Source: Williamsia soli | GTDB taxonomy: Bacteria > Actinomycetota > Actinomycetes > Mycobacteriales > Mycobacteriaceae | Reading direction: 5' to 3' | NCBI RefSeq assembly: GCF_017377795.1 | Contig: NZ_JAFRDR010000002.1 | Location: forward strand, 248,001 to 312,000 | DNA: 64,000 nucleotides | Shown here: in pieces, positions 1 to 14,019 of the stretch | Layout: every line of letters starts with the position of its first letter | Numbering within the stretch: position 1 is the stretch's first letter | Made by a program: the position numbers and the translations under genes | Notes under the pieces: generated by a model | What the model was told of the DNA's origin: nothing | The model's input: the letters and a program-made list of their open reading frames with translations, nothing else | Database searches by the model: none

Positions 1-1099
1 GCGCCACACGAGCCGCGACTTCGGGCTTGTCCTCGCCGCCGGGTGCCACGACGACCGGGACCCCGTGACGCAGGGCGGTCATCACGCCCCCGTAGCCACC
101 GTTGGTGACCATCACTGCAGTGCGCGGCATGAGCAGGTCATGGTCGATGAACTCAACCGCGATCGCATTGTCCGGCAACGCCCCTAGCCGGGAGACCGGC
201 GCGCCGCCGGTGCTGACGATCACCCGTACGGCAGCCGTGGCCAACGCTTCGAGTGCCGGTATCACCATCTGCGAGAAGTCATGGTTGTCCAGCGTTCCCT
301 GAGTCAGATGGACGACAGGTCTGGCGTCGTTCTCGACATCACGCCACCACGCCGGGGGGACTTGCGATTGACCGTGATGGGCGACGACCGGCCCGGCGAA
401 GATGGTATTCGGGTTGAGATCGCTTCGTGGATACTCGAACTCCGCCGGCCCCAGTTGTAGAAAACGATCGAATGCCACTGATAGATCGAGGATGAAACCG
501 TCCAATGCACCACCTTCCGCGACAACCAGGTCACGTGCCAGCCTCTGGATAGATCGGAAGATGACGTGGCGAGCAGCCAGGTTCGCGACCCGGTTCCGGA
601 TTCGCATGACGGGTCCACGTCCGGGAGACAGGCCACTGTTGAACGGTGGGACATCCACACTCGTTTGAGCCAACGGCATCGTCCCGAGTCCGATTACTGC
701 GGGTCGCCGCGATCGTGGCCGCGCCAGCAGCGGCAACACCCCGGCGAACGTGCCATCAGCCAAGACCGCCGCGAACTCACGCTTACCCAGCAACGACTCC
801 ACCGATATGGCCTGCCCGGTGATGGGTCGGACAAAAGTCTGCTGCACCTGATATCGCGACAACGCAAGTCCCCGATGGCGGTCCAAGTCGGGGGTGAAGG
901 TCTCCGGGTTACGTTCGTCGAAATCCGCGTCGGCACACAATGGCTCGAACTCCAGACCGGCCTTCTCCACCGAGTCGGCGAAGGCCGCACCGGTCAGCAT
1001 GGCCACCTGATGCCCCCGCGAGACCATGTCGCGACCGATTGCCATGATCGGCCCTACATGCCCCCGCAGCGGCGGGCTGCACAACAGATACTGAGCCAT
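1..1099 (-). CDS. MGT-type UDP-glycosyltransferase, 3'-truncated by window edge
   Basis: This reading frame is open from an ATG at 1097-1099 to the window edge, giving the first 366 residues. It resembles the macrolide glycosyltransferase (GT1) family, cytoplasmic enzymes that move a sugar from a nucleotide donor to a hydrophobic acceptor. The N-terminus MAQYLLCSPPLRGHVGP is the usual acceptor-domain start. Near residues 265-280 is a strand with HLTQGT. The donor-binding part TNGGYGGVMTALRHGVP lies near residues 338-354, where the family usually has HGGxGS, so the catalytic-side His is replaced by Asn. The C-terminal tail is missing only because the window ends. It is divergent from a TetR gene, which is its likely regulator. 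The acceptor is unknown. Confidence 0.8.
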   Translation of the reverse strand, partial: MAQYLLCSPPLRGHVGPIMAIGRDMVSRGHQVAMLTGAAFADSVEKAGLEFEPLCADADFDERNPETFTPDLDRHRGLALSRYQVQQTFVRPITGQAISVESLLGKREFAAVLADGTFAGVLPLLARPRSRRPAVIGLGTMPLAQTSVDVPPFNSGLSPGRGPVMRIRNRVANLAARHVIFRSIQRLARDLVVAEGGALDGFILDLSVAFDRFLQLGPAEFEYPRSDLNPNTIFAGPVVAHHGQSQVPPAWWRDVENDARPVVHLTQGTLDNHDFSQMVIPALEALATAAVRVIVSTGGAPVSRLGALPDNAIAVEFIDHDLLMPRTAVMVTNGGYGGVMTALRHGVPVVVAPGGEDKPEVAARVA

Positions 1100-1135
1100 A
1101 CGAGTTCGCGCCTTTCAGCTCGCTGTATTTTTACT

Positions 1136-1146
1136 AGTGTCACACT
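1136..1146. promoter_or_regulatory. Palindromic operator candidate between glycosyltransferase and TetR
   Basis: AGTGT-C-ACACT is a perfect 11-bp palindrome in the 133-bp divergent spacer. Its position is right for a site at which the neighbouring TetR protein could control both genes. The assignment is by position only. Confidence 0.4.
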
Positions 1147-1232
1147 CTAATCGAATGTAGGTTGCGAAGCGCTACCATGGCCTGCGGGAGGACGCGCCGA
1201 CCCGGCCGACGTAGCAGAGGTGGTGATCGACG

Positions 1233-1862
1233 GTGACAACTCGTCGTTACGTATCGCGCAAGCGCGCGATCACTGCCGCACAGACAAGAGCGAACATACT
1301 CGACGCAGCGCAGAAGCTGTTCGTCGAGAACGGTTACTCGCGCACCACCCTGCAAGAAGTGGCCACCGCTGCGGGCGTATCGGTTCAGTCGGTGTACTTG
1401 GCAGGTAGCAAGGCATCGTTGATGATGGCGGTGCTCGAGCGAGGATTTACCGGCGATGAACAATTCACCTCGCTACTCGAGCGTCCAGAGTTCTTGGCGA
1501 TCATGTCCGACACCGACACTGAACGCGCCCTCGATCGCTACGTCGACTTCGTCGTGACCGCGAACAGCCGAATAGCCGATCTCTGGCATGCGGCCACCCT
1601 CGCCGCCGACTCCGAACCCGCGATCGGAGAGCAACTCGAACGCAGCGAGCTACGCCGCCTCGACGACGTTCACACCGGTAGTTACTGGTTTGTCCAGCGT
1701 GGACTGCTCGGCGACAGTCGGGTCGACGAGTTCGCCGACATCCTGAGCTACCTCACGGCTTCGGACACCTACCGATACTTCACCGTTGAGCGAGGATGGA
1801 CACAATCTCGATTCACGGCGTGGTTGCGACGTTCCATCGCCCAACACCTCGCCAGTGAGTGA
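1233..1862 (+). CDS. TetR/AcrR family transcriptional regulator
   Basis: This is a 209-residue regulator with a GTG start. The N-terminal helix-turn-helix spans about residues 14-60 (TRANILDAAQKLFVENGY, then LQEVATAAGVS). In most TetR proteins the segment after the recognition helix reads YxHF or YxYF; here it is VYLAGSKASLMM, a common variant. The C-terminal part, which would bind a ligand, has no family I recognise. The gene diverges from the glycosyltransferase and a short palindrome lies between them, so local repression is likely. The ligand is unknown. Confidence 0.85.
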   Translation: MTTRRYVSRKRAITAAQTRANILDAAQKLFVENGYSRTTLQEVATAAGVSVQSVYLAGSKASLMMAVLERGFTGDEQFTSLLERPEFLAIMSDTDTERALDRYVDFVVTANSRIADLWHAATLAADSEPAIGEQLERSELRRLDDVHTGSYWFVQRGLLGDSRVDEFADILSYLTASDTYRYFTVERGWTQSRFTAWLRRSIAQHLASE

Positions 1863-1928
1863 CGCTAGGCATGGCAAAGGCGTTGCTACACAAGTGTTAC
1901 GAGTATCAACCCACGTTCAACGCTGCGC

Positions 1929-2339
1929 TCACGCTGGTAACAGTCCTAGCTGACCCAGAAAGTCCAACTGATCGAAGTAGAGGTGCTCATAGAGCAGGTC
2001 GTCCCCGCGCACCTGATACGACGCGCTCCACCGGAACGAGATCGACTTGCCCGTGGGCGGCACATCTCCGTTCGGACTCTGGAGCACGCCATCGTGCGTT
2101 CCCGCGAACACGCCTTCGACCGCGGCCCGATCACCGTCCACCACCCAGGCGTTCACGGTCAGCGCACCGCCTGAGAACGCTGCTTGGAACACCCCGAGGA
2201 ATCCCAAGACGCCTTCGCGTCCGCTGAATGTTCCGGCTGGGGCGATCATCTCGGCGTCCGCCGACCAGGGGTCGGACTCGGTATCGCGGCTGTTGAACGC
2301 GCTGATGTGTTGTTCGATGACGCTACGTGTGTTGCTCAT
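1929..2339 (-). CDS. SnoaL-like / NTF2-fold protein
   Basis: The 136-residue product begins MSNTRSVIEQHISAFNSRD and has the alternating pattern of the NTF2-like SnoaL fold: an N-terminal helix, a DPWSADAEMIAPAG segment, then beta strands ending YEHLYFDQLDFLGQLG. Such proteins are small cyclases, isomerases or accessory ligand binders; nothing here fixes the substrate. The ATG at 2337-2339 is preferred over the longer frame upstream, whose residues look non-coding. It is convergent with the TetR gene. An imperfect dyad GTTT-GACT-AAAC lies upstream near 2430. Confidence 0.75.
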   Translation of the reverse strand: MSNTRSVIEQHISAFNSRDTESDPWSADAEMIAPAGTFSGREGVLGFLGVFQAAFSGGALTVNAWVVDGDRAAVEGVFAGTHDGVLQSPNGDVPPTGKSISFRWSASYQVRGDDLLYEHLYFDQLDFLGQLGLLPA

Positions 2340-2552
2340 GAAGTGTGGACCCAATCGAATGTCGAGGAGAGCTTTTTCCAAGTTCTGCAACCGTAAACCA
2401 CGAGAGGCCGTCACGTAAGATTTCAGTATAGTTTGACTAAACCAAATTTGCGGCCGGCGTTTCTGCGTGGTCGATGAGAGAGTGCTTGAGGGCGTCCAAA
2501 GCATGGCATGTGCCGTCGCCGGGGCGTGCCGCGACCGACGTACGTGACCGCG

Positions 2553-2795
2553 TCACCAAACGTTGCGTCGAATCAGATCAGGCGCACGGTGTACAGCCGG
2601 GCGAATTGGGTGGAGACGCCGGGTGCGTAACCACCGAGTGAGGCCCCGAATACGCCACGCGTTCAAGTTCTGCCGCGAAATGCCGATGCGGCGGGCCAAC
2701 TCAGACTCACTCACGCCGTACGCAGCTTTGTGTCCATTAGTGAGAGCGACGAGATACTTTGTACCGAAACAGTATCGGCGCGGCAGGACCGGAAG
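2553..2795 (-). pseudogene. Remnant of a small helix-turn-helix protein
   Basis: One minus frame reads about 20 residues that look like a real DNA-binding module (SESELARRIGISRQNLNAWR), preceded by KYLVALTNGHKAAYGV. No acceptable start codon precedes this homologous part, and the sequence after it is arginine-rich and shadow-like. I read it as a decayed gene, fused by rearrangement to the end of the PIN gene at about 2795. It is not recognised as a specific family. Confidence 0.4.
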
Positions 2796-3129
2796 CAATC
2801 GCCTCTGCACCACCGATGACCGCTGCGGCCACAAGGTGCTCATCATCTGGATCCGGGAGGTTAAATGAACCGTCGAGCACCTCCCAGCCAACGACACAGG
2901 CATCGTCGAACGCAGCTGCCATCTGCTCTACGAGGTGCGCTGCTCGTGCAGCGGCGTCTTCCGGATCGGCGCCGCGATCAATGAGTTTGCGCGCCTCGTG
3001 GAACTCGAGTTCTTCAAGGATGGCGTCCGACCAAAGGGGGCGATATAGGTTCTCGGCTGCGAGTGAGTGCAGGACGTCTCGTTGCAGGCTCGGCCACAGC
3101 ACGCAGGTGTCGAGAACGGCTACGAACAT
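2737..3129 (-). CDS. PIN-domain ribonuclease toxin, C-terminally altered
   Basis: This is a predicted Mg-dependent ribonuclease of a type II toxin-antitoxin pair. Acidic PIN positions are visible: D7 in LDTCVL, E39/E40 in ILEELEF, and D93/D95/D96 in LPDPDDEH. Homology looks good to about residue 111 (GGAEAIA). The following tail SGPAAPILFRYKVSRRSH does not look like the usual TDN-containing strand and the protein stops at 130, shorter than related VapC-like proteins of about 190. It probably lost its end through the same rearrangement that left an HTH fragment next to it. It starts 12 bp after the antitoxin gene. The toxin may be inactive. Confidence 0.7.
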   Translation of the reverse strand: MFVAVLDTCVLWPSLQRDVLHSLAAENLYRPLWSDAILEELEFHEARKLIDRGADPEDAAARAAHLVEQMAAAFDDACVVGWEVLDGSFNLPDPDDEHLVAAAVIGGAEAIASGPAAPILFRYKVSRRSH

Positions 3130-3141
3130 GGGTCGATTGTG

Positions 3142-3846
3142 TCAGCCAGTTTTTTTCGCTGCCTTACGACGTGCTGCGACTGCTTTACGGGCCTCGCGCA
3201 GCTGCCGTCGGATCACCTCTGGGCCATCCTCGACATCGATAGGCACCGACGTCGCGGCGATGGCGTCGTATTGCCGTGTCCGACGGGCATCCCGGTAGGC
3301 AAGCACGTCGTCAAGCAGCAGCCGATGCCGATTGCCGACCCGCTCGGCAGCGATCTGTTCGTCGTTGATCAACCGGACGATCGTAGGCCGACTCACGCCC
3401 AGCAGGTCGGCGGCCTGCTGCGTCGTGAGGGTCATGCTCTGCGGCGCCACGGTGACAGCTCGGCCTTGAGACATTGCCTCAACTACCCGCTTGAGGACCT
3501 GGTGAAGGTTCTCCGGCAGCTCGATTCGATCGTGCTCGTCGACCCCGACCAGGGCGTATGAAGGTTGGGCAGTAGTCCCCGCTGACCGTTCATGGGCTTG
3601 CAGGAAGCCCCGCGCAACTACGATCCCATCCTTTATGGCGTAGCACTCGACCAGGTACTCGCCGCGGAATGCGGTGCTTTCGTGCCCCAATCCTCCAGCG
3701 TCCCGCCAGAGGGCGGCGGATCCACACGAACGTCTGGCCGACGGAGAGTGCCTGAACATTTGTTCATCTTCCGGATCGTGTTGCCTGCCCGCCCTGACCG
3801 CTTGACCAGGGGTCTCCTTGATGTCATCCCAAGTGCGCAGGGCCAC
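3142..3846 (-). CDS. Excisionase-type HTH antitoxin (start uncertain)
   Basis: The last 130 residues form a recognisable antitoxin. A linker VDEHDRIELPENLHQVL is followed by TLTTQQAADLLGVSRPTIVRLI, a MerR/excisionase-type helix-turn-helix, and a Lys/Arg-rich tail. Such proteins pair with the PIN toxin gene that follows 12 bp downstream. The open frame reaches an ATG at 3846, but its first 90 residues look only partly coding and no ATG or GTG sits at the expected place around 3560. Either the start is the distal one or the 5' end has been rearranged. The HTH would be expected to autoregulate the pair. Confidence 0.65.
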   Translation of the reverse strand: MALRTWDDIKETPGQAVRAGRQHDPEDEQMFRHSPSARRSCGSAALWRDAGGLGHESTAFRGEYLVECYAIKDGIVVARGFLQAHERSAGTTAQPSYALVGVDEHDRIELPENLHQVLKRVVEAMSQGRAVTVAPQSMTLTTQQAADLLGVSRPTIVRLINDEQIAAERVGNRHRLLLDDVLAYRDARRTRQYDAIAATSVPIDVEDGPEVIRRQLREARKAVAARRKAAKKTG

Positions 3847-3848
3847 GA

Positions 3849-4703
3849 GTGGCGGCTGTGGGTGAACTCGTCAACAGGGTCGCACGTGCGTGCCGGAACG
3901 ATGCCTCTTACCCCGACTCGAAGTGCTACGAGACGGTCTCCTTGCGATCGCCGAAAATCGTTCGAATCAGTTCGGAGCCGAGCTGCTTGCGAGCCAAGCT
4001 GCTTGGGAGCCAAGAGAACATCGTCAATGAAGCCCCAGAAGTCGAGTCCTTGGCGCTTGGCCCCGCAGATGTGGTTTTGGCGGGTCGATATCAGCGCGTC
4101 GATGGGGCCGGCGTGGGGTTTGTGCCAGCGGACCTGCGCGACTTTGCGCCGTGGTGGGAGGCTGCGCTACGTGATTGGCACACGATTGCGCCGGAAAAGT
4201 TCCCGGATTTTGCGGGCTGGGACGAAGAGGACGAAGAGTACGAGTGGCTTAGTCACGCTGAGCAGGAGGCGGCTAATGCGATTGCGGCTGAGCGTGAGCG
4301 GTTTGCGGCACAGCGAGCCGAGCACGACGCGCAGATGCTTAGCCTGGAGGCCGCCGCGGCGGCCTCTAATGGACGCCTAACGGTGCTTCCGACGGGTACC
4401 GGAACCGAGCTTCAGGACGCGGCGCGCGACGTCCTCCGCGACATCGGATACAAGCGTGGAAGACATGGATGCTTCAGAGAAGTTCGCCGACCGGGAGCTA
4501 CGGGAGGACTATCGAATCACCGAACCTGCCGTTTGGAGGACTGGCTGGTCATTGGAGACGCCACCGGCGTGGCCAATGAGGCCAAAGGGGCCAAGGCGTC
4601 CAAAATGACCGCGCTGGCCGACCTCGCGACCATCAACGGCGTACAGGGTGACCCCGTCTGCGCTATCGACATCGCCCACGTTTTTGATGACCTCGACGCT
4701 TGA
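3849..4703 (+). pseudogene. Hypothetical protein gene with two compensating frameshifts
   Basis: The open frame is 284 codons long but only parts of it look real. Residues from about 65 onward (DVVLAGRYQRVDGAGVG, then PEKFPDFAGWDEEDEEYEW) are convincing protein. At 4455 the sensible reading moves by +1: the other frame gives VEDMDASEKFADRE up to about 4535, after which the original frame resumes with DWLVIGDATG. So one gained base and a later compensating change have scrambled about 27 codons. The C-terminus after KASKM is also atypical. The family is a conserved actinobacterial hypothetical I cannot name. It belongs with the PIN/HTH remnants to its left. Confidence 0.55.
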
Positions 4704-4712
4704 TGGTGTCGA

Positions 4713-4739
4713 CCTCACGTTTCAGAGTTCCGATCCGTC
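4713..4739 (+). promoter_or_regulatory. ECF41-type promoter of the sigma factor gene
   Basis: CCTCACG at 4713-4719, a 16-bp spacer, then CGTC at 4736-4739. The ECF41 consensus is TGTCACA-16-CGTC as I recall it, and the TCAC core, spacing and CGTC all agree. The same arrangement occurs at 5770 and, on the minus strand, at 8154-8180. It predicts autoregulation with a leader of about 65 nt. Confidence 0.7.
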
Positions 4740-4811
4740 ATATTTGATGAGAGTGTCGTGGGTTGTGGTGGTCCGCAGGGCCGCGAAGCGTTCCTCTTAG
4801 AAAGGCGAAAG

Positions 4812-5768
4812 ATGTCGCACGAGGAGCCGGCAATGGTCCCATCCGGGGGTGACGCGGACGTGGTTGGCGAACGCCGTCGCCTCGTTTCCCTGGCCTACCG
4901 GATGACGGGAACTCTGGCAGATGCGGAAGACGTCGTTCAGGAGACTTACATTCGGTGGTACCGGCTGACAGAACAGGAACGCGGCGAGATCCGCAGTCCT
5001 GCAGCCTGGCTGACCCGAGCCGCCAGCCGAATCGCACTCGACGTGCTCAGTTCAGCCAGAGCTCGTCGCGAGAAGCAGATCGGACAATGGCTGCCGGAAC
5101 CGATCCCATCCGACCTCTTCCTCGGCACGGGAACAGCCTCAGACGCCGCTGTTGGTGTGGTGGAAGATCCGCTGGACCGAGTGACCCTCGACGACGCGGT
5201 GAGTACTGCGCTCCTGATGGTGCTAGAGTCCATGACTCCGCCAGAGCGCGTCGCGTTCGTGCTGCATGACGTATTCGGCACTCCGTTCGATGAGATCGCA
5301 GACCTGGTTGGACGTTCGCCCGAAGCTACCCGTCAGTTGGCTTCCTCTGCGCGGCGACACGTGCGTGAGCGGCGTACTACAATAGTCGCCTCGAAGACAC
5401 ATGACGATGTGGTTCGCGCGTTCCTGGCCTCGAGTCAGGGAGGGGACATGCGACTTCTCATGAGAACTCTCGCGCCTGAGGTCGAGTTGCGCGCGGATGG
5501 CGGCGGAGTGGTGAGCGTCGCCCCCAACGTCGTCACGGGATCCGATCGCGTTGCGCGTTTCCTCATGGGTGTCATGCAGAAACGGCCGGAGCTCGTGTTC
5601 GAGGAGCGGCGCACCGCGGACGGCTTGGGATACGCCTTGACTCTGGGCGGACGACTTTTCGGCATTGCCAGCTTCCACGTTGAGGGGGAGCAGATCACCG
5701 ACGTTTGGCTTGTGCTGGACCCTCGCAAGCTCGGCGAGTGGGTGACCCCCGATCAGATCACCGAGTGA
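4812..5768 (+). CDS. ECF41-family RNA polymerase sigma factor with C-terminal SnoaL-like domain
   Basis: The 318-residue product starts at the ATG of MSHEEPAM, behind AGAAAGGCGAAAG. Sigma region 2 (about residues 20-85, YRMTGTLADAEDVVQETY) and region 4 (about 125-185, TPPERVAFVLHDVFG ... EIADLVGRSPEATRQ) are clear. A fused C-terminal domain of about 115 residues follows. ECF41 hallmarks are present: WLPEP in the region 2-4 linker, DGGG in the C-terminal domain, and DPRKL near the end where the family has NPDKL. In ECF41 the C-terminal domain regulates sigma activity in place of an anti-sigma factor. Known family targets are neighbouring oxidoreductases or epimerases, which fits the genes downstream. 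Confidence 0.93.
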   Translation: MSHEEPAMVPSGGDADVVGERRRLVSLAYRMTGTLADAEDVVQETYIRWYRLTEQERGEIRSPAAWLTRAASRIALDVLSSARARREKQIGQWLPEPIPSDLFLGTGTASDAAVGVVEDPLDRVTLDDAVSTALLMVLESMTPPERVAFVLHDVFGTPFDEIADLVGRSPEATRQLASSARRHVRERRTTIVASKTHDDVVRAFLASSQGGDMRLLMRTLAPEVELRADGGGVVSVAPNVVTGSDRVARFLMGVMQKRPELVFEERRTADGLGYALTLGGRLFGIASFHVEGEQITDVWLVLDPRKLGEWVTPDQITE

Positions 5769-5769
5769 G

Positions 5770-5796
5770 CCTCACGTTCACCGGGCCTGTGCCGTC
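5770..5796 (+). promoter_or_regulatory. ECF41-type promoter of NAD(P)-binding oxidoreductase
   Basis: CCTCACG at 5770-5776, 16-bp spacer, CGTC at 5793-5796. It begins 2 bp after the sigma gene stop codon and about 70 bp before the next start. The -35 element is identical to that of the sigma gene promoter. Confidence 0.7.
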
Positions 5797-5865
5797 AAGT
5801 ACATGCGGGCATCGAGCCGCTCGCGCTGCGGGAGGTTCCTGCTGCGATGAGAAAGGAAGTTGACG

Positions 5866-6618
5866 ATGAAGATTGCAGTCGCGGGTGGAACCGGCACCGT
5901 GGGACGGTACGTTGTGCAGGCGGCGCGTCGTTGCAGTCACGAGGTGGTTCTCTTGACACGCAGCAACGGCGTAGATGTTCTTCAGGGCAATGGCATCGAC
6001 AATGCCATCGCAGGGGCGGATGCGGTCGTCGATGTGCTCAACGCGACCACCCTGTCGACCAAAAAGGCGATCGAGTTCTTCGAGTCGGCGTCGCGGCAGT
6101 TGCTGAGCGCGGAGAAACGTGCGGGAACGCCGCACCATGTGGCGTTGTCGATCGTGGGGATCGACAATATCGACACGTCGTACTACGCCGGAAAGCTCGC
6201 TCAGGAACGTCTTGTTGCCGCATCCGATGTGCCTCACACCATCGCTCGTACCGGCCAGTTCCACGAGTTCGCTGAGCAGATCGTCGCGCAGACCACCATG
6301 GGCGCGCTGACCCTGATTCCGAAGACTCTTACCCGGCCCGTTGCCGCCGAGGAGGTCGGCGAACACCTCATTGCTGTCGCCGAGAACGAACCCACTGGTC
6401 GGGCAATTGATCTGCTCGGTCCTCGGGACGAGTCCTTGGCCGACATGGTTCGCCGGATGTACGCGCACGACGGAACGCGACGCCGTGTGCTGGAGTTGCG
6501 TTTCCCTGGCGCTTACGGACGAGGTCTGGCTTCCGGCGAGCTCCGCGGCGGCACCTCGAAGACGACTGCGCGCACGACGTTTGACGAGTGGCTGCGCACA
6601 GGGCATCACGCCAAGTAG
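5866..6618 (+). CDS. NAD(P)-binding atypical SDR oxidoreductase
   Basis: This is a 250-residue cytoplasmic Rossmann protein. MKIAVAGGTGTVGRYVV carries the GxxGxxG nucleotide loop at the very N-terminus. LSIVGI and the YYAGK segment resemble the atypical SDR (NmrA/NAD(P)H-binding) group, which includes quinone reductases and sensors. The ATG at 5866 is chosen because GGAAG lies 6 nt upstream; a TTG at 5860 would have no room for a ribosome site. It has its own ECF41-type promoter, and a paralogue at 7368-8105 carries another, so both are probably in one stress regulon. The substrate is unknown. Confidence 0.85.
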   Translation: MKIAVAGGTGTVGRYVVQAARRCSHEVVLLTRSNGVDVLQGNGIDNAIAGADAVVDVLNATTLSTKKAIEFFESASRQLLSAEKRAGTPHHVALSIVGIDNIDTSYYAGKLAQERLVAASDVPHTIARTGQFHEFAEQIVAQTTMGALTLIPKTLTRPVAAEEVGEHLIAVAENEPTGRAIDLLGPRDESLADMVRRMYAHDGTRRRVLELRFPGAYGRGLASGELRGGTSKTTARTTFDEWLRTGHHAK

Positions 6619-6635
6619 TCCGCCGGGCTCGTCTT

Positions 6636-6662
6636 CCTCGTGCCAACGGCGCCGAGCACGTA
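6636..6662 (+). promoter_or_regulatory. Weak ECF41-like promoter match
   Basis: CCTCGTG, 16 bp, CGTA: the same geometry as the three strong sites but with two or three mismatches. It lies 67 bp before the start of the membrane protein gene. Listed because of its position; it could be chance. Confidence 0.25.
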
Positions 6663-6728
6663 CAGACGTGCGTCACCACCTTTTTCCCACATGGTCTACC
6701 GACGCGCGGCGTCGAGAACGGATTTTTC

Positions 6729-7193
6729 ATGAGTAACCGCGCCCACCTTCCCGGTGATAGTGCGAGCGACGACCGACGCGTTGGTGGATTCCAGTTAGCT
6801 GCTCTCATCGGCTCCATCGTCATCGCTGCCGTCGTCGGCACATGGGCATACTTCTTCCCGGAGCAGTTTTACGATCACTTCCCGGCAGTCCTGGGGGAGT
6901 GGATCTCGCAAGACGGGCCGTACAACGAGCACCTGATCCGCGACCACGGCGCCCAGTACCTCGCACTCGGGCTGGCAAGCGTCTTCGGCCTGTTCTGGCA
7001 CTCCCAGATCGGCTACCGGCTCCTCGGTATCGCATGGACCACGTTCGGGGTGCTCCACTTCCTCTATCACGTGACGCATCTCAGCCACATGTCCGTATCG
7101 GACCAGATCAGCCAGGTCATCGTTCTCGGCTTCGCCGTCCTACTTGGCGTTGGCCTCTTCATCCCGCCGCGGCGCAGTCCTCGCCCTGCGTGA
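6729..7193 (+). CDS. Small integral membrane protein
   Basis: The 154-residue product has four hydrophobic segments: about residues 22-40 (LAALIGSIVIAAVVGTW), 80-95 (YLALGLASVFGLFW), 99-118 and 130-147 (QVIVLGFAVLLGVGLF). Between the first two is a periplasmic-type loop FPEQFYDHFPAVLGEW. I do not recognise the family; the four-helix layout with His-rich HFLYHVTHLSHMS in the third helix recalls small DUF4345/DoxX-like proteins. The N-terminal region upstream of the ATG at 6729 reads as non-coding. It sits between two oxidoreductases of the presumed ECF41 regulon and ends at a strong two-way terminator. Confidence 0.65.
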   Translation: MSNRAHLPGDSASDDRRVGGFQLAALIGSIVIAAVVGTWAYFFPEQFYDHFPAVLGEWISQDGPYNEHLIRDHGAQYLALGLASVFGLFWHSQIGYRLLGIAWTTFGVLHFLYHVTHLSHMSVSDQISQVIVLGFAVLLGVGLFIPPRRSPRPA

Positions 7194-7281
7194 TGGATAC
7201 ACCTGGCGCATCGGGCGGCGCTCGGCACCCATAGCGGCAGCTGACCTGACGGCCACGTTCTCGAGGAGCGGCAGATGCCGA

Positions 7282-7330
7282 AAAGAGCCTCACCTCCCAC
7301 GCTCATAGATCGTGGGAGGTGAGGCTCTTT
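7282..7330. terminator. Bidirectional intrinsic terminator
   Basis: A perfect 20-bp inverted repeat (7282-7301 with 7311-7330) encloses a 9-nt loop. The stem ends in AAAGAG/CTCTTT, so each strand has a short A or T run. It lies exactly between two convergent genes. Confidence 0.85.
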
Positions 7331-7367
7331 GACTCGAGATCAAGTCGGGCCTGGCGGGCGGAATGGG

Positions 7368-8105
7368 TTAGCTCGCAGGGGGGATGTCGCGGATCGGGTA
7401 CAAAGTTTTTCCCACGCGGTACTCGCCGCGAGGCACCAGCGCGTCTTCAGCGCCACGGCTTTCTACCGTGACGACGTCTCTGGGGTCGCCGGTGGCTGCG
7501 AGCGTGCCGCGGAGCAGGTCGTCCATATGGAACCGCTCGGGCCCGGCGATCTCGACTTCGCCGAGGGGGCCGCCGGACAGCGTGACCTCGACCAACAAAG
7601 CAGTGAGTTCATCGAGCTCTACCGGCTGGATCAGATCCCGCGGAGCGAGAACCTTGCCGTCCACCGTGTGCTGGTCGGCCAGCACGGGAACGTAACCCTG
7701 GAATTGCGTCGAGCGAACAATGGTGTAGGGAATCGAACCCGCCTTGAGCGCCCGCTCTTGCGCCACCTTTCCCAGGTAGTAGCCGATGTCCGACCCGACT
7801 TCGTCGCCGACGCCCACTATGGACAGGAGGATGTGGTGCCCCGCACCTGCCTCCTCACCGGCGGCCGTCAGCGCGCGGGTCGTACCGTCGAAGAAGCTGA
7901 CCGCGCCTTCTTCGTCGAAACGATTGGTGTTGAGGACATTGATGATGGTGTCCACGCCCTCCAGAACCTCAGCCACTCTCGTGCCCTCGATGTAGTCGAC
8001 CCCGTCATCCAGGCCGCCGGACACGACCTCCACGCCGCGCGACTCGAGAAGATCTGCAACCTTTGATCCGACTCGACCTCGGCCACCGGCAATGAGAACC
8101 TTCAC
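7368..8105 (-). CDS. NAD(P)-binding atypical SDR oxidoreductase, paralogue of 5866-6618
   Basis: The 245-residue product is a second Rossmann-type reductase with VKVLIAGGRGRVGSKV at its start, LLSIVGVGDEVGSDIGYYLGK in the middle, and VPYTIV-like IPYTIVRSTQF. These segments match the paralogue at 5866 one for one. The GTG start at 8105 is chosen because AAGGAG lies 9 nt upstream and the glycine loop follows directly; the longer frame upstream reads as non-coding. It carries an ECF41-type promoter about 50 bp upstream. Its neighbours are convergent and separated by a strong terminator, so it is an independent member of the sigma factor's regulon. Confidence 0.85.
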   Translation of the reverse strand: MKVLIAGGRGRVGSKVADLLESRGVEVVSGGLDDGVDYIEGTRVAEVLEGVDTIINVLNTNRFDEEGAVSFFDGTTRALTAAGEEAGAGHHILLSIVGVGDEVGSDIGYYLGKVAQERALKAGSIPYTIVRSTQFQGYVPVLADQHTVDGKVLAPRDLIQPVELDELTALLVEVTLSGGPLGEVEIAGPERFHMDDLLRGTLAATGDPRDVVTVESRGAEDALVPRGEYRVGKTLYPIRDIPPAS

Positions 8106-8153
8106 TTCGCTAGCTCCTTCACGTGGGGTGGCGTTTCCACCCTCTACATGAGT

Positions 8154-8180
8154 GACGACGCGAACGCTCCCGATGTGAGG
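8154..8180 (-). promoter_or_regulatory. ECF41-type promoter of second oxidoreductase
   Basis: Read on the minus strand: CCTCACA at 8180-8174, 16-bp spacer, CGTC at 8157-8154. The -35 here has the last A of the published TGTCACA. It predicts a leader of about 40 nt before the GTG at 8105. Confidence 0.7.
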
Positions 8181-8620
8181 TTCGATCTGCTTACCGCAGA
8201 ACACAACCACGTCCGTGCACTCCACGTCCCCGGCGGACCGACCGTACTCTGAACCGATCGCCACCACATACGGCGGAATGGCTGGATGTAGCCCGCCGGG
8301 ACACGGTTCTTGTCGGCGCGGGATGTACTAACGGACATAACGTTACCAACAGTGGAGAGTGAATGTAGCTCTCTGACAGGCATTTTCAGCCGCTACCTTA
8401 CTTAATATCTATTTGCGGCGAAAGCCATTGCTTTGCGAACACGTTCAGTTGTATGGCGGTGGATTGGAGCCCAGAATGGTAGCGGTGATGGCGACAGGTT
8501 CGTCGACGGAGATTTGCTAGTCGCCGCGTTGGCGGACCCAGCGATCTGCGATACACCTACGGCCAGTGAGCAGGTGTTGGTCCGTCAAGAGTCGGACCCC
8601 GTCGGCGCAGCAGCGGCAGG

Positions 8621-8824
8621 TCAGTCGTAGAACGGGTGGCGGCCGCAACGGTCTGCGGCTACAACATCGATGTCGTCGCGGGTCGTGAGAGCGCGGATGG
8701 TGGCCGCGTCGGCACCGATCCCGGCCCAGTGTGGATCGGTGTCACTGGCCAAACACCATGCGTGGTCGGCGGGCCATACGAAGGCCGGCTCGGGGCCGCA
8801 GGAGGTGGTAATTAGAGAACGTAC
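8621..8824 (-). pseudogene. C-terminal remnant of a conserved hypothetical gene
   Basis: Sixty-seven codons open to a stop at 8621 contain a credible protein end: CGPEPAFVWPADHAWCLASD, then DPHWAGIGADAATIRAL and a final HPFYD. This resembles the C-terminus of small actinobacterial proteins that end with WPADRAWCV and VGG-like motifs. An in-frame stop at 8825 cuts off anything upstream, and no start codon is available. It is a gene fragment, not an expressed gene. Confidence 0.55.
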
Positions 8825-9289
8825 CTAAGACGCCGATACGGTCCGGAAGTCTCAGCCCTCCCGTTCCCCGACGAGACGTGCTCGTACTCCTAATCTGCGC
8901 CCAGCAGCCGCCCCGTCGATCTATTGACCGACCGGCCATTCGCAAGTGGAGCCGTTACGAATCGTGCATCCGATGCAATAATCCCGGTTCTACTTGACAT
9001 AATGTTTCTTATCGGCGTTGAGGTTGGGAGAGGTCATCGAAGGTCGCTATGGGTATTTTTGAGTTCAGGTGAACATCTGCAACGTGCCGGCACGGCCGTC
9101 ATCCAAACGTTTGTAAGCCTGCGGCAGTTGACAGGTCTGCGTCCGGAGCCGTCGGTGCGCGCCTGCCTTGCAGCATTCGCGCGTAGCCGTTTCGTCGGGC
9201 CGACTACAGCGCTCCACGGCGACCGCCCTCTGAACGCCAATCTTGGTGGACTTCAAACGCACAGTGCGGCAACGTGATTACCCGCCGAA

Positions 9290-9305
9290 TCGTCACGTGT
9301 GACGA
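9290..9305. promoter_or_regulatory. 16-bp palindrome, copy 1
   Basis: TCGTCAC-GT-GTGACGA. The 7-bp arms are perfect. An almost identical copy lies at 9534-9549. It is possibly a binding site for a dimeric regulator; no gene starts nearby. Confidence 0.45.
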
Positions 9306-9533
9306 AACGGCCCCACGTGACAACACCTGAGTGAGTGACGCCGGATCGGCGATGGCCGGAATCTCCACGCCAACAACCTACTGAGTGCTCACTGCAGGCG
9401 CTGGTTGCAAACCCGCCGCTGGTGCTCTCCAATCGCGCGGTGAGTAAATAGACTCCACGTCGACCCGCCTAGTTGAACGAACGATTACCCACCCAGGCTC
9501 CTAGTGGACAATTGCGTCCGGTCGAACGTCCTT

Positions 9534-9549
9534 TCGTCACATGTGACGA
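9534..9549. promoter_or_regulatory. 16-bp palindrome, copy 2
   Basis: TCGTCAC-AT-GTGACGA, with the same arms as the copy at 9290. It overlaps the stop codon of the RCC1-repeat gene. It could be a protein site or a remnant of a duplicated boundary. Confidence 0.45.
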
Positions 9550-10394
9550 TAAGCCGTAGGGACGGCCAGGTGCCAATTTTCCACATCGCATTGGCCGTCG
9601 TCGTTGTTTCCGGCGGCGAGAACACAGCCATCCGCGCGCAGGCCGAGGGTATGTGTTGAGCCCGCGGCGATGGCCACAACCTCTCGCCAGGTGTCAACGT
9701 CACACTGTCCTCGGGCGTTGTTGCCTGCAGCGCGAACTCGCCCTCCGGATTCGAGGCCCACTGTGTGATAGCTGCCCGCTGAGATGGCGACAATGTTTCG
9801 CCACGTACGCATCTCATCAGTTCCCGCGTCATGATTACCGGTGGCCAAAACCTCGCCCTGGCCGGTCACCGCAGCCGTGTGGAGGTAGCCGGCCGCGGCG
9901 GCCTTCACATCCCGCCAGCCGGCGACTGCGCACTGTCCCCTGCTCGTGCTGCCTACTGCCGTCACAGTGCCGTCCGCATGAACTCCGACGGTGTGCCAGT
10001 CCCCTGCAGTAACTGCTATTACCTCTCGCCATCCTTCGACGTCGCAAGCCCCCTCGAGTCGACGCCCGCGTGCGCACGCCGATCCGTCGGCAAACACAGC
10101 GACCGTTCGTCGCCAGCCTGCCGCGATGTCCACAACGCTTGTCCAATCGCCGACCTCGCACTGGCCGTCGGCGTTCCAGCCGGCGGCGGTGACGGTACCG
10201 TCGACATGCAGCCCGACAGTGTGCGCGCGTCCCGTATTGGATGCCGTGTGCACGTTCCCGACTGCTACCGTGTCGATCAATATCCACTGCCCGACAAGGG
10301 TTTCGGGCGCCGGCGGGCTACCGGCGGCCACTGCCGAACCGTCTGCCCTCACGCCTACCGAATGCCGCCGCCCGGCGGCGATGATCTGACCCAT
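9537..10394 (-). CDS. RCC1-repeat (beta-propeller) protein
   Basis: The roughly 285-residue product has about seven degenerate RCC1 units. Each carries an AAGxxHTVGLxxDG strand followed by VxAAGxNxxGQCDV. The best units are around residues 58-82, 140-165, 208-235 and 250-275. Such repeats form seven-bladed propellers that act as protein-interaction scaffolds; in bacteria their role is mostly unknown. No signal peptide or membrane segment is visible, so a cytoplasmic location is likely. The last blade stops soon after NWHLAVPTAYRHM, so the 3' end may be frayed. A start at 10394 (MGQIIAAG) or 10403 is possible. Its neighbours give no hint of function. Confidence 0.8.
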   Translation of the reverse strand: MGQIIAAGRRHSVGVRADGSAVAAGSPPAPETLVGQWILIDTVAVGNVHTASNTGRAHTVGLHVDGTVTAAGWNADGQCEVGDWTSVVDIAAGWRRTVAVFADGSACARGRRLEGACDVEGWREVIAVTAGDWHTVGVHADGTVTAVGSTSRGQCAVAGWRDVKAAAAGYLHTAAVTGQGEVLATGNHDAGTDEMRTWRNIVAISAGSYHTVGLESGGRVRAAGNNARGQCDVDTWREVVAIAAGSTHTLGLRADGCVLAAGNNDDGQCDVENWHLAVPTAYRHM

Positions 10395-10525
10395 CACGAT
10401 CACGATAGGGCTTCTCGCGGCGCACTGGCGGCAATTTCGATTGCGGGCGGTGTGTGAGTGCTCTGTGGATCAGTGGGATCAGGCAGACGAGCTTGGGTCC
10501 GGCCACGAACTCACAAGCACGAATC

Positions 10526-10561
10526 TTGACAACTGTCCGGAAAAATCTTGACAGTTGCCAT
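10526..10561. promoter_or_regulatory. Paired TetR operator candidates upstream of acyl-CoA ligase
   Basis: Two sites 22 bp apart start-to-start: TTGACAACTGTCCG (10526-10539) and TTGACAGTTGCCAT (10548-10561). They resemble the pair at 13882-13917, which has the same spacing. The second TTGACA may also be the -35 element. This fits control by the TetR encoded at 13189-13815. Confidence 0.6.
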
Positions 10562-10610
10562 AGATTGACGGGAGACTCATTTGCACCACATGACGAAGCG
10601 GAGAACAACA

Positions 10611-12146
10611 GTGTCGTTGACCTTCTATCTCGACAAGGGTGCGTCGCTGGGCGCGGACGCTCCGTGTCTGACGTTCAACGGAGTGTCGCTCAGCTACGGG
10701 GACGTCGTGACCCTCTCGCATTCGGTTGCCAAGGCGCTCAGGCATTCCGGGGTGCGGCCGTCCGATAAGGTCGGCATTTTGTCCGGTAACCACCCGACAT
10801 CATTTGCGTGCGTTTTCGGCATCTCGCGCGCGGGCGCAGTCTGGTGCCCGATCAATCCCCGCAACGCGGCCGGAGAGAACGCTGAGCTTCTCGATTTGTT
10901 CGACTGCACCACGTTGATCTACCAGCCTGCGTTCGACGCGCTGGTGTCCGAGATATCACCGCGGCTCCCGAAGCTGTCGAACCTCGTGAGGTTGGGCGAC
11001 AGTAGCGAAACGGCTATCGGCTTCGACACCTGGCTGTCCGAGGCCGAGGCCGATCCCCCTGCCGACACCGAGAGTGCACCAGACGATTTCGTTGCGCTCG
11101 TCGGCACCGGCGGCACCACCGGTCGCCCCAAGGGCGTCATGCTCACCGGCCGCAACCTGGAAACAATGACAGCGATTGTGCTGATGCGCTATCCGTTCGA
11201 GGGCAGACCACGGTACCTCGCGCTCGCGCCCCTCACCCATGCCGCGGGCGTGCTGTGTTTCCCGATCCTCGCGCTGGGCGGCGAGGTCGTCGTGATGGAT
11301 CATCCCGATGTCGGGGACTTCCTCGAACTCGTCGGGCGGCACCGCATCACGCACACCTTCCTGCCGCCCACCTTGATCTACATGACCCTGGATCACGAAT
11401 CGCTTGACTCCACCGATCTTTCGTCGCTGCAATGCTTTTGGTACGGAGCCGCCCCCATCTCGACCACTCGCCTCGCCGAGGCACTCGAACGCATCGGACC
11501 AATGGCCCAGCTGTTCGGACAGTCCGAGGCGCCGATGATGATCTCCACGCTGTCGCCGGCTGAGCACCGTAGAGAGGACGGCAGCGTCGACATCGACCGA
11601 TTGTCGTCGGCTGGTCGGCCGTCACCGTTGGTGACCGTGGCGATCCTCGACAAAGACGGGGCGGCGGTACCAACCGGAGATCGAGGCGAGGTCTGTGTCC
11701 GCGGGTCCCTGGTGATGGCAGGCTATTACCGCAACCCCGAGGCGACCGCAGAGGCCTCGACCTACGGCTGGCATCACACCGGCGACATCGGCTATCTCGA
11801 CGACGACGGCTTCCTCTACATCGTCGACCGCGCGAAAGACATGATCATCACCGGCGGCTTCAATGTTTACTCGGCCGAGGTGGAGCAGGCCCTGATGGCC
11901 CACCCTGCTATCCGGGACTGCGCCGTCATCGGATTGCCCGATGAGAAGTGGGGCGAGAGGGTTACGGCCATCGTCTCCCTTCGACCCGACGCCGAGTTCG
12001 ACGCCGACGATTTGATCGCGTTCGTGAAAGCGCGAGTCGGCAGCGTCAAAGCACCCAAGCAGGTCGAAGTCTGGACCGACCTGCCCCGCTCGACCGTCGG
12101 AAAAATTCTCAAGACCGACATCCGCTCCACTCTTACCGCGAAATGA
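10611..12146 (+). CDS. Acyl-CoA synthetase (AMP-dependent ligase)
   Basis: The 511-residue enzyme activates a carboxylic acid as acyl-AMP and transfers it to CoA. The P-loop TGGTTGRPKGVML (about residues 165-177), the adenylation motif YGAAP near 280, TGDIGYLDDDG near 400, and the catalytic Lys in PRSTVGKILK near the C-terminus are all present. The GTG at 10611 is preferred because GGAGAA lies 5 nt upstream; an ATG at 10590 is an alternative. An LLM monooxygenase follows after 34 bp, probably in one operon under the two TetR sites upstream. The natural acid is unknown. Confidence 0.9.
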   Translation: MSLTFYLDKGASLGADAPCLTFNGVSLSYGDVVTLSHSVAKALRHSGVRPSDKVGILSGNHPTSFACVFGISRAGAVWCPINPRNAAGENAELLDLFDCTTLIYQPAFDALVSEISPRLPKLSNLVRLGDSSETAIGFDTWLSEAEADPPADTESAPDDFVALVGTGGTTGRPKGVMLTGRNLETMTAIVLMRYPFEGRPRYLALAPLTHAAGVLCFPILALGGEVVVMDHPDVGDFLELVGRHRITHTFLPPTLIYMTLDHESLDSTDLSSLQCFWYGAAPISTTRLAEALERIGPMAQLFGQSEAPMMISTLSPAEHRREDGSVDIDRLSSAGRPSPLVTVAILDKDGAAVPTGDRGEVCVRGSLVMAGYYRNPEATAEASTYGWHHTGDIGYLDDDGFLYIVDRAKDMIITGGFNVYSAEVEQALMAHPAIRDCAVIGLPDEKWGERVTAIVSLRPDAEFDADDLIAFVKARVGSVKAPKQVEVWTDLPRSTVGKILKTDIRSTLTAK

Positions 12147-12180
12147 ACGACAACCCAACAAAGTAACGAGGTCTACGACG

Positions 12181-13173
12181 ATGGAACTAGCCCTGTACCT
12201 TCCCAACTTTCGCGAAAAGGTCACCGTCACCGAGCTCGAGGACCTCACCCAGTTGGCCGAGGATCTCGAGTTCGAATCCGTGTGGACGCTTGATCGCATC
12301 ATCGTTCCGGAGTCTTCCGACCGGGCCGAGATGGAATACGCGTTCGGCATGATGCATGAGCTCCCCAAGCAGCTGCCCGTCTCCTCACGGGGCGAGTTCC
12401 TCCAGGGCTTTCCGCTCATCCCCTGGCTCGCCGCCAAGACCAGTAAGGTCCGCATCGGTATGAGCATCATCGACACGCCGTACCGATCCCCGGGCGTGCT
12501 CGCCGCGGAACTGGCCACCATCGATCACCTCAGCAATGGACGGCTCAACGTCGCGGTGGGTTCAGGATGGATGCCAGAGGAATTCGCGGCCGCGAGCGCC
12601 TCGCACATCTTCCCGCGCCGCCACCAACACCTGCGCGAGACGATCGAGATCATGCAAGGCATCTGGACGAACGACGTCTTCGAATACCACGGCGAGTTCG
12701 CTGATTTCGGCCCCAGCGGCTTCGGCGCCAAACCTCTCCAGCAACCGCATCCGCCGATCTACTTCAGTGGCCTCAAGGACGCGAAACGCGCCGCGAAGCG
12801 AGTTGCCAAATACGGTTTGGACGGGTGGATCGGGATTCAGGACTCACCGGAGGAGATCGCGGAGTGGCGCAAGGGCATTCAACATGAACTCGAAGCCCTC
12901 GACACCTCTCGCACCATTGACGACCTCGACATCGCCAGCATGATCTGGACCGTCATCACCGACGTGGACATGGACCAGACTCCAGCGGGCAAGGCCAGTA
13001 ATCTGCTGGTCGGATCCGAGGCCCAGGTCACCGACATGCTCAAGCGCTATCGAGAGGCTGGACTCACCAAGCTGCTTGTGTGGCCGCCGTTCGCCGACGT
13101 CCCCACTCCCAAGACCATGGATGACATGAAGCGCCTCAAGAACGACATCCTGCCCAAGATCGAGGCAATGTAG
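12181..13173 (+). CDS. LLM-class flavin-dependent oxidoreductase
   Basis: This 330-residue bacterial luciferase-like TIM-barrel enzyme uses FMN or F420. It has MELALYLPNF at the N-terminus, ESVWTLDRI (residues 32-40), RIGMSIIDTPYRSPGVLA and LSNGRLNVAVGSGWMPEEF, the usual flavin-binding core. The C-terminus TKLLVWPPFADV fits the F420-type subfamily found widely in Mycobacteriales. It is co-directional with the acyl-CoA ligase 34 bp upstream and shares its presumed regulator. Together they suggest a catabolic step on an acyl or alicyclic compound; the specific reaction is not shown by sequence. Confidence 0.9.
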   Translation: MELALYLPNFREKVTVTELEDLTQLAEDLEFESVWTLDRIIVPESSDRAEMEYAFGMMHELPKQLPVSSRGEFLQGFPLIPWLAAKTSKVRIGMSIIDTPYRSPGVLAAELATIDHLSNGRLNVAVGSGWMPEEFAAASASHIFPRRHQHLRETIEIMQGIWTNDVFEYHGEFADFGPSGFGAKPLQQPHPPIYFSGLKDAKRAAKRVAKYGLDGWIGIQDSPEEIAEWRKGIQHELEALDTSRTIDDLDIASMIWTVITDVDMDQTPAGKASNLLVGSEAQVTDMLKRYREAGLTKLLVWPPFADVPTPKTMDDMKRLKNDILPKIEAM

Positions 13174-13188
13174 AAACGGCTGCGAAGA

Positions 13189-13815
13189 TCACCGCAAGAA
13201 CAAGTCGAAGGCCTCGGCCAGCTGATCTCGAGATGACGTCAGCTGGTCGTCGCCGTCACTCAACAGGCTCATCAACGCGCGTTGGAAGATGCCGTCGATG
13301 ACGACGTAGGCCATGTGTGACGAGAACCGGGGCGTGACACCCGACAGTTCGTAGAACCGTGTCACCACCCGCCACGTCATTTCCTCACGCCGAGATTCGA
13401 TCTCGCGCACGTCTTCTCTGAACGACGACTCGAACAGAGTCTGATTTCGAAGGTCGTACCACAGCCGATGCAGCGCAGAATCCGACTCGAGCGTCGCAAA
13501 GAACATTGCCGCGAACTCGTCTCTGAGTTCCTGGGCGGTAGAGGCTGCGGCGACGACCTCGTCGTAACGGGTGACGCACACGTCCTCATAGATCCGGACG
13601 GCTTGCGCTATCAGGTCGAGTTTGTCGGAGAAGTAGTAGTGCAGAACACCGTGCGAGAACGCAGAATTCTGCGCAATCTCGCGCAAACTGGTGCGGGCAT
13701 ATCCCAATTCGGCCAACGTGAGCAGTGTCGCCGTCGCGAGTTCGATACGACGCGCCTCGAACTTGTCTGGGCCGCGTAAACCGGCTCGCGGGGTGTTATC
13801 GGCGACGGTCGTCAT
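13189..13815 (-). CDS. TetR family regulator of the ligase/LLM/SDR regulon
   Basis: The 208-residue product has an HTH at about residues 22-68 (RIELATATLLTLAELGYARTSLREIAQNS, then VLHYYFSDKLDL). The second half resembles BetI-type C-terminal domains. The gene is convergent with the LLM gene (15 bp between stops) and divergent from the SDR gene. Paired sites containing TTGACA lie upstream of both the ligase and the SDR, with identical 22-bp spacing. This makes it the probable repressor of all three genes and of itself. An acyl-CoA ligand would be a reasonable guess. Confidence 0.87.
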   Translation of the reverse strand: MTTVADNTPRAGLRGPDKFEARRIELATATLLTLAELGYARTSLREIAQNSAFSHGVLHYYFSDKLDLIAQAVRIYEDVCVTRYDEVVAAASTAQELRDEFAAMFFATLESDSALHRLWYDLRNQTLFESSFREDVREIESRREEMTWRVVTRFYELSGVTPRFSSHMAYVVIDGIFQRALMSLLSDGDDQLTSSRDQLAEAFDLFLR

Positions 13816-13881
13816 CGGTACAGCTTACGGCGATCCCCCACGTCCGTGTCCAGCTGAAACAGGCCTCGCCCATCGATTTCT

Positions 13882-13917
13882 TTGACAAGTGTCAGAATTA
13901 CTCTTGACATCCGTCAA
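13882..13917. promoter_or_regulatory. Paired TetR operator candidates between TetR and SDR genes
   Basis: TTGACAAGTGTCAG (13882-13895) and TTGACATCCGTCAA (13904-13917), 22 bp apart. Both are near-perfect dyads of the form TTGACA-N2-(T/C)GTCAA. This spacing of two helical turns equals that at 10526/10548. Confidence 0.65.
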
Positions 13918-14019
13918 GATTTGTTCGTAATGTGACCCACATCGCATCATGTAAGTGACGACATTGCATGCCCGTGTATGGATTCAGTAAATATTCGCAG
14001 GGTCAAGGGAGACGATTCA

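Follow-up and report, generated by a model that had tools for sequence, protein, structure and literature searches.

A predicted local regulon of a divergent ECF41-type sigma factor branch with an altered -35 box in Williamsia soli

A small group of genes in the actinobacterium Williamsia soli appears to form a self-contained local regulon under its own sigma factor, an extracytoplasmic function (ECF) sigma factor of the ECF41 type. The window analysed here is a stretch of 64,000 nucleotides of this genome (NCBI RefSeq assembly GCF_017377795.1, contig NZ_JAFRDR010000002.1, positions 248,001 to 312,000 of the forward strand), and the coordinates given below refer to it. We consider it probable that this sigma factor represents a distinct branch of ECF41-type proteins with an altered -35 element, the likeliest origin of which would be the replacement of an arginine by serine at residue 179. 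This interpretation retains the family and the local regulon proposed in a first-pass annotation of the window, the regulon being suggested by three clustered sites located before genes and from which transcription would start, and abandons the notion that the variant -35 is specific to the lineage.

The motif CCTCAC(G/A)-N16-CGTC had been described as occurring exactly, with an invariant 16-bp spacer, at three places, and all three are borne out. We propose that site P1 (CCTCACG-N16-CGTC, 4713-4739, forward strand) is the promoter through which the sigma gene is autoregulated, that P2 (CCTCACG-N16-CGTC, 5770-5796, forward strand) is the promoter of a gene for an NAD(P)-binding protein, named here NAD-A, and of a membrane-protein gene, MEM, and that P3 (CCTCACA-N16-CGTC, 8154-8180, reverse strand) is the promoter of NAD-B, which encodes a paralogue of NAD-A. 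The sites lie 48-72 nt upstream of the sigma, NAD-A and NAD-B genes, and MEM is probably cotranscribed with NAD-A. A weak match at 6636, put forward earlier as a possible promoter of the membrane protein, was rejected: it lacks a CGTC at the required distance, and substitutions and small gaps separate it from the corresponding sequence of an uncultured Williamsia (L011), the closest named relative of the locus, with a sigma factor 96% identical.

The first-pass annotation had proposed a genome-wide search for the motif. Across the 6,072,852 bases and 25 contigs of the genome we found eight exact sites, against six for a reversed control pattern, so that it is the placement of the sites that is unusual and not their number. 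Three of the eight are packed into 3,468 bases (Poisson P 4e-9 to 2e-8), and each of the remaining five involves a long open reading frame (ORF), lying inside it, on its opposite strand or over its edge. The clustering is thus what this search supports; the genome-wide count was rejected as evidence, the total exceeding the reversed control in only 6 of 39 genomes, that of W. soli included.

The comparison drew on 16 loci from a search of genome contigs, the best 30 each from searches of 298 and 396 genomes, the paralogues in the genome of W. soli itself, 30 further loci from 200 genomes searched with one of these paralogues (L058), and ten plasmid loci, one of which was later dropped. The distant locus L061 was left out of trees and counts, and L012 and several other rows out of alignment A1, either because the coordinates used included stops or to limit its size. 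In the 46 close loci (best-segment identity of at least 43%), CCTCAC[AG] followed by CGTC occurs 34 times at a spacer of 16 and never at 15 or 17; other spacers account for 13 matches at 13, three at 14 and four elsewhere, in a histogram made without L011 and L027. The matches at spacer 13 were discarded as by-products, 15 of 15 in the full set ending in CGTCGTC. The same pattern is absent at spacer 16 from 30 more distant loci, where TGTCAC[AG] is found 13 times at that spacer, as against three times in the close set.

When 77 sigma proteins were placed on a quick tree, all 30 CC-typed loci fell in one clade of 43 rows (Shimodaira-Hasegawa-like approximate likelihood ratio test, SH-aLRT, 99), the other members being nine rows with no box in range and four whose boxes differ; the 34 rows outside this clade include no CC-typed locus. 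The larger set, grouped by residue 179, comprises 69 Arg and 46 non-Arg loci (L119 dropped), and branch counts were made on 45 loci, with the window included and with L119, which carries an internal stop, and the near-copy L011 left out. Near the sigma gene (-350 to +30 of its start), CCTCAC[AG] at spacer 16 is present in 31 of the 45 branch loci (40 sites) and in none of the 69 others. The wider form CCT[C/G]AC[A/G]-N16-[C/T]GTC is found next to 36 of the 45 branch sigma genes and again next to none of the 69 others, and its variant CCTGAC[AG]-16, which includes the P2 site of L011, recurs in the branch with nine sites in eight loci (0/69 elsewhere). The other loci have mostly NGTCAC, in 23 of the 24 sites found, or no box, and the -10 and the spacer are unchanged relative to the family. 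The altered -35 is the mark of a single branch of ECF41-type proteins. The best-supported new point is this branch, in which the box goes together with the loss of the arginine that elsewhere occupies the G-35-contacting position.

The genome of W. soli carries two further SigJ-like sigma genes, L057 and L058, which differ from the sigma factor of the window in having Arg at the position of residue 179 and GGTCACA or TGTCACG boxes. L057 (SigJ score 252.2, below the cut-off of 271) is divergent from a gene with the Pfam domain CMD (E 8.3e-19) and is associated with a GGTCACA-N16-TGTC box; L058 (329.1, above the same cut-off) adjoins a convergent gene with TGTCACG-N16-CGTC upstream. By eye the latter gene had been taken for a carboxymuconolactone decarboxylase, an assignment withdrawn because it gave no Pfam hit. 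Since both box types occur in one genome, the altered box belongs to the sigma factor and not to the genome, and we prefer a -35 specific to the sigma branch to the lineage-specific variant initially read from the CCTC start, which the distribution of the box does not bear out.

The codon of Ser179 (5346-5348, forward strand) falls in the recognition helix of sigma4 (residues 170-187 in the model). Position 179 is Ser in 41 of the 43 clade rows, Ala in one and Gln in one, and Arg in all 34 rows outside. On a tree of 115 rows, from which column 179 was excluded, the Arg/non-Arg split corresponds to one branch and one change (support 97), and residue and branch therefore define the same grouping in the larger set; the box base requires three changes on the tree. 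Within sigma4, only position 179 separates the groups near-completely (1.0), the next values being 0.56 at position 156 and 0.52 at position 141.

This position has a counterpart in better studied sigma factors. According to the excerpted text of PMC6713349, the -35 element begins with G-35, to which R176 of sigmaE and R175 of SigW form hydrogen bonds, and R171 contacts G'-31; excerpts of PMC11588781 describe the same Arg175-G-35 contact in simulations of Corynebacterium glutamicum sigmaH and sigmaD. By our own reading of the ungapped helix register, Ser179 would occupy the position of these arginines, and the phmmer alignment to SigJ, ungapped there, places an Arg opposite Ser179. If TGTCACA is laid on the SigW element TGAAAC, the second base of the box would be G-35, which is C in the branch. 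Sites near the sigma gene, which are not independent of one another, have at this second place 43 C, 3 G, 2 T and 1 A in non-Arg rows, and 1 C and 23 G in Arg rows. Over whole loci, with flanks of up to 1.5 kb, the non-Arg set holds 55 C at spacer 16, where ten other spacers average 4.7 and reach at most 19; for G in the Arg set the corresponding figures are 78, 13.8 and 30. The altered box would most likely stem from the loss, by change to Ser179, of a recognition-helix Arg that elsewhere contacts G-35.

Several observations weigh against this reading. Nine of the 45 branch loci have no box near the sigma gene: it lies farther upstream in L013, L014 and L062 and downstream in L028, and none was found in L029, L048, L054, L067 and L070. 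Among the sites close to branch sigma genes three are of the CG type, and a TCAC-16 box is missing from the neighbourhood of the sigma gene in 50 of the 69 Arg loci, including 29 of 29 in L089-L117. Whole Arg loci also show an excess of A as second base at spacer 16 (17, for a mean of 6.3 and a maximum of 16 at the other spacers). Because the tree holds a single Arg/Ser change, the association amounts to one event from which the causal part of residue 179 is inferred, and positions 50, 54, 299 and 310 are branch-specific as well, the strongest lying outside sigma4. The regulon and the branch -35 could be real and Ser179 a bystander, with recognition of the box left to backbone geometry or to further residues specific to the branch. 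Serine itself is not required, since the two branch rows that have Ala or Gln there likewise carry CC or GC boxes. We nonetheless regard a bystander role as unlikely, given that no other sigma4 position approaches the separation seen at 179 and that, in our register, this is the position contacting G-35 in the solved complexes (PMC6713349, in the excerpted text).

Somewhat more doubtful still is the view that only P1 and P3 are ECF promoters, with NAD-A and MEM read through from P1 and the site at 5770 a remnant. It draws on L011, where P2 reads CCTGACA-N16-CGTC, with two -35 bases changed and P3 unchanged, a further point against the proposed set of three promoters, and on the Microbacterium timonense locus L012, which has CATCACA there. 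Excerpts of Wecke 2012 (PMC3426412) moreover report the motif before both genes in about 20% of cases in which an ECF gene lies upstream of a COE gene (carboxymuconolactone decarboxylase, oxidoreductase or epimerase). The motif of the window is however exact and at the right spacing, and the CCTGACA of L011 is the recurrent branch variant described above. That P1-P3 are promoters at all is a prediction from sequence, which also counts against our reading, and TCAC-type boxes could bind other proteins, in which case the sites would be operators of another regulator; the fixed 16-bp spacing to a CGTC -10, the family-like architecture and the way the box tracks the sigma branch make this very improbable. 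As for chance matches in a GC-rich genome, the genome total near its control and the few genomes above theirs would be in keeping with them, but the comparative data already contradict this explanation and leave it next to no credibility: three of the eight sites fall in 3.5 kb, all before genes, the P1 and P3 boxes are kept in L011, and boxes are also present in L012 and across the branch.

In the regulon that we propose, a signal would switch the SnoaL-like domain fused to the sigma factor, by analogy with ECF41, and the sigma factor would then direct RNA polymerase to its own gene at P1, to NAD-A and probably MEM at P2, and to NAD-B at P3. The branch -35 would be CCT[C/G]AC[A/G] in place of [N]GTCACA, combined with the 16-bp spacer and CGTC -10 of the family. 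Ten chosen ORFs downstream of branch boxes, from a source list that includes spurious ORFs, gave Pfam hits in nine cases: CMD (L032, L042, L066), FMN_red/flavodoxin (L040), Pyr_redox_2 (L056), YceI (L053), LUD (L065), NAD_binding_10 (L063) and DUF6220 (L034), with none for L041. Such targets are of the kind described for ECF41 in the excerpts of PMC3426412, and the regulon would therefore likely serve a local redox or electrophile response.

The joint change of residue and box suggests how a sigma factor could stay separate from its sister sigma factors. It is conceivable, and we put it forward tentatively, that one Arg-to-Ser substitution at the G-35-contacting position of the recognition helix, together with a change of the box from G to C, founded a promoter-insulated branch of ECF41, spread as compact cassettes like 4695-8223; some actinobacteria would then keep two ECF41-type networks working side by side in the same cell, free of cross-talk. 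Here the sequence displays a natural change of one residue and one base, and a single genome houses circuits with either box, which makes specificity switching directly testable. The association also hints at how promoters might, as a rule, be matched to ECF41-type sigma factors. A narrow search of the open-access literature brought up no description of an ECF41 box of the CCTCAC type, and existing ECF surveys may already list the branch or its box.

The sigma factor itself (P0001, 318 residues, 4812-5768, forward strand, likely start ATG 4812) comprises sigma2, sigma4 and a C-terminal SnoaL-like domain, and the family named by the first-pass annotation proved right. Sigma70_r2 and Sigma70_r4_2 of Pfam score above cut-off, with SnoaL_2 weak and below it (E 8.7e-4), and the protein reaches 285.3 bits against the NCBIfam SigJ subfamily (cut-off 271). 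VIA-align and Foldseek served only to confirm the SigJ fold, which resembles 5xe7. An SnoaL-like C-terminal extension of about 100 residues, the WLPEP of residues 93-97 in the sigma2-sigma4 linker and NAD-A as a COE-type neighbour are features that it shares with ECF41. A family search found no anti-sigma hit beside the sigma gene, the adjoining MEM being an unclassified small protein. The C-terminal motifs of the group are DGGG and NPDKL; the C-terminus here contains DGGGV, and DPRKL where NPDKL is expected. DPRKL is present as stated earlier, but NPEKL and NPDKL are the commonest forms in both sets, and we rejected this minor variant as a functional difference. Measured against the group signature TGTCACA-n16-CGTC, the spacer and CGTC agree and the -35 is CCTCAC[A/G]; on account of this mismatch, the protein is filed as a divergent ECF41-type branch and not as canonical ECF41. 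The target promoter of Mycobacterium tuberculosis SigJ is of the GTCACA type. This protein (PDB 5xe7) is the closest solved structure by sequence and fold, and has Arg at the position of Ser179.

The ECF41 systems of Bacillus licheniformis and Rhodobacter sphaeroides, as presented in the excerpts of Wecke 2012 (PMC3426412), share with the present one the domains, the C-terminal extension, WLPEP, the COE neighbour, the 16-bp spacer, the CGTC -10 and promoters before the ECF and COE genes; an anti-sigma gene was recognised beside none of them, though the window holds the unclassified MEM. They differ by their -35, TGTCACA instead of CCTCAC[A/G], and by their extent: the same excerpts conclude on a single target gene or operon, whereas the window offers candidate promoters at three places and NAD-B as an additional NAD(P)-binding gene. 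The excerpts also put the number of ECF41 proteins at about 400, spread over 10 phyla, and most of the actinobacteria that possess such proteins have several. The promoter of Sinorhizobium meliloti RpoE9, another ECF41 protein, contains TGTCACA and CGTC in the excerpts of PMC6180224, unlike the window.

The regulon block may have travelled. A megablast of window positions 1-9500 against 11 kb of L011 gave a single match, 4695-8223, at 95.2% identity. Within it, the P3 site and its near flanks are identical, and P1 retains both boxes with one spacer change. In L012 (76%), CCTCACA lies upstream of the sigma gene and of NAD-B, and the P3/NAD-B arrangement is the same as in the window. Window positions 10611-12485 match the L011 genome at 77% on another contig (G678:C7, 384,910 bases; that of L011 has 395,339 bases), and a search made without a positive control found no match there for positions 1-4690. 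As the block is 95.2% identical and its flanks differ, it looks exchanged as a unit, and from its sequence the block 4695-8223 seems to move as one. A plasmid origin was rejected, since a distant blastn of positions 4650-8300 against plasmids returned nine records with 3-5% coverage each, and there is no tRNA within positions 1-14000; neither search pointed to a vehicle. Three large Streptomyces plasmid records (L118, L120, L121) carry branch sigma genes with CCTCACA boxes, and L119 is a Streptomyces plasmid copy of a branch sigma gene with an internal stop.

Among the predicted target genes, NAD-A (P0003, 250 residues, 5866-6618, forward strand, likely ATG 5866) encodes an NmrA-like protein with NAD_binding_10 (E 2.6e-10), and passes other Pfam cut-offs barely (NmrA 27.4 against 27, Epimerase 21 against 20.9). 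NAD-B (P0002, 245 residues, 7368-8105, reverse strand, likely start GTG 8105) is 33% identical to it. MEM (P0004, 154 residues, 6729-7193, forward strand, likely ATG 6729) was judged by eye to be a small putative membrane protein; no family scored above cut-off, the best being DUF4345 with 18.8 bits against 26.5. Homologues of MEM lie near the sigma gene in L012, L013, L014 and L028, with a box directly upstream of them in three loci: CATCACA in L012, CCTCACA in L013 and GCTCACG in L014.

Between the convergent MEM and NAD-B lies a hairpin (7282-7330, inverted repeat I1) with arms of 23 nt that are 96% complementary; the RNA of 7284-7330 folds at -38.6 kcal/mol. It is likely a bidirectional terminator, and was not among the hits of a strict terminator scan. 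This long, near-perfect hairpin also contains CCTCAC within both arms.

Three branch loci without a CCTCAC box (L048, L067 and L070) have Lys for Arg174 and share a common upstream block, GGTCTCACCAGCCCGACGAC; Lys for Arg174 is also found outside the branch, in L022-L025. Elsewhere in the window, a PIN-domain gene adjoins a helix-turn-helix gene at 2737-3846 (reverse strand), forming a toxin-antitoxin-like pair, and positions 9537-10403 (reverse strand) encode a protein of repeated similar units that by eye resembles the RCC1 type.

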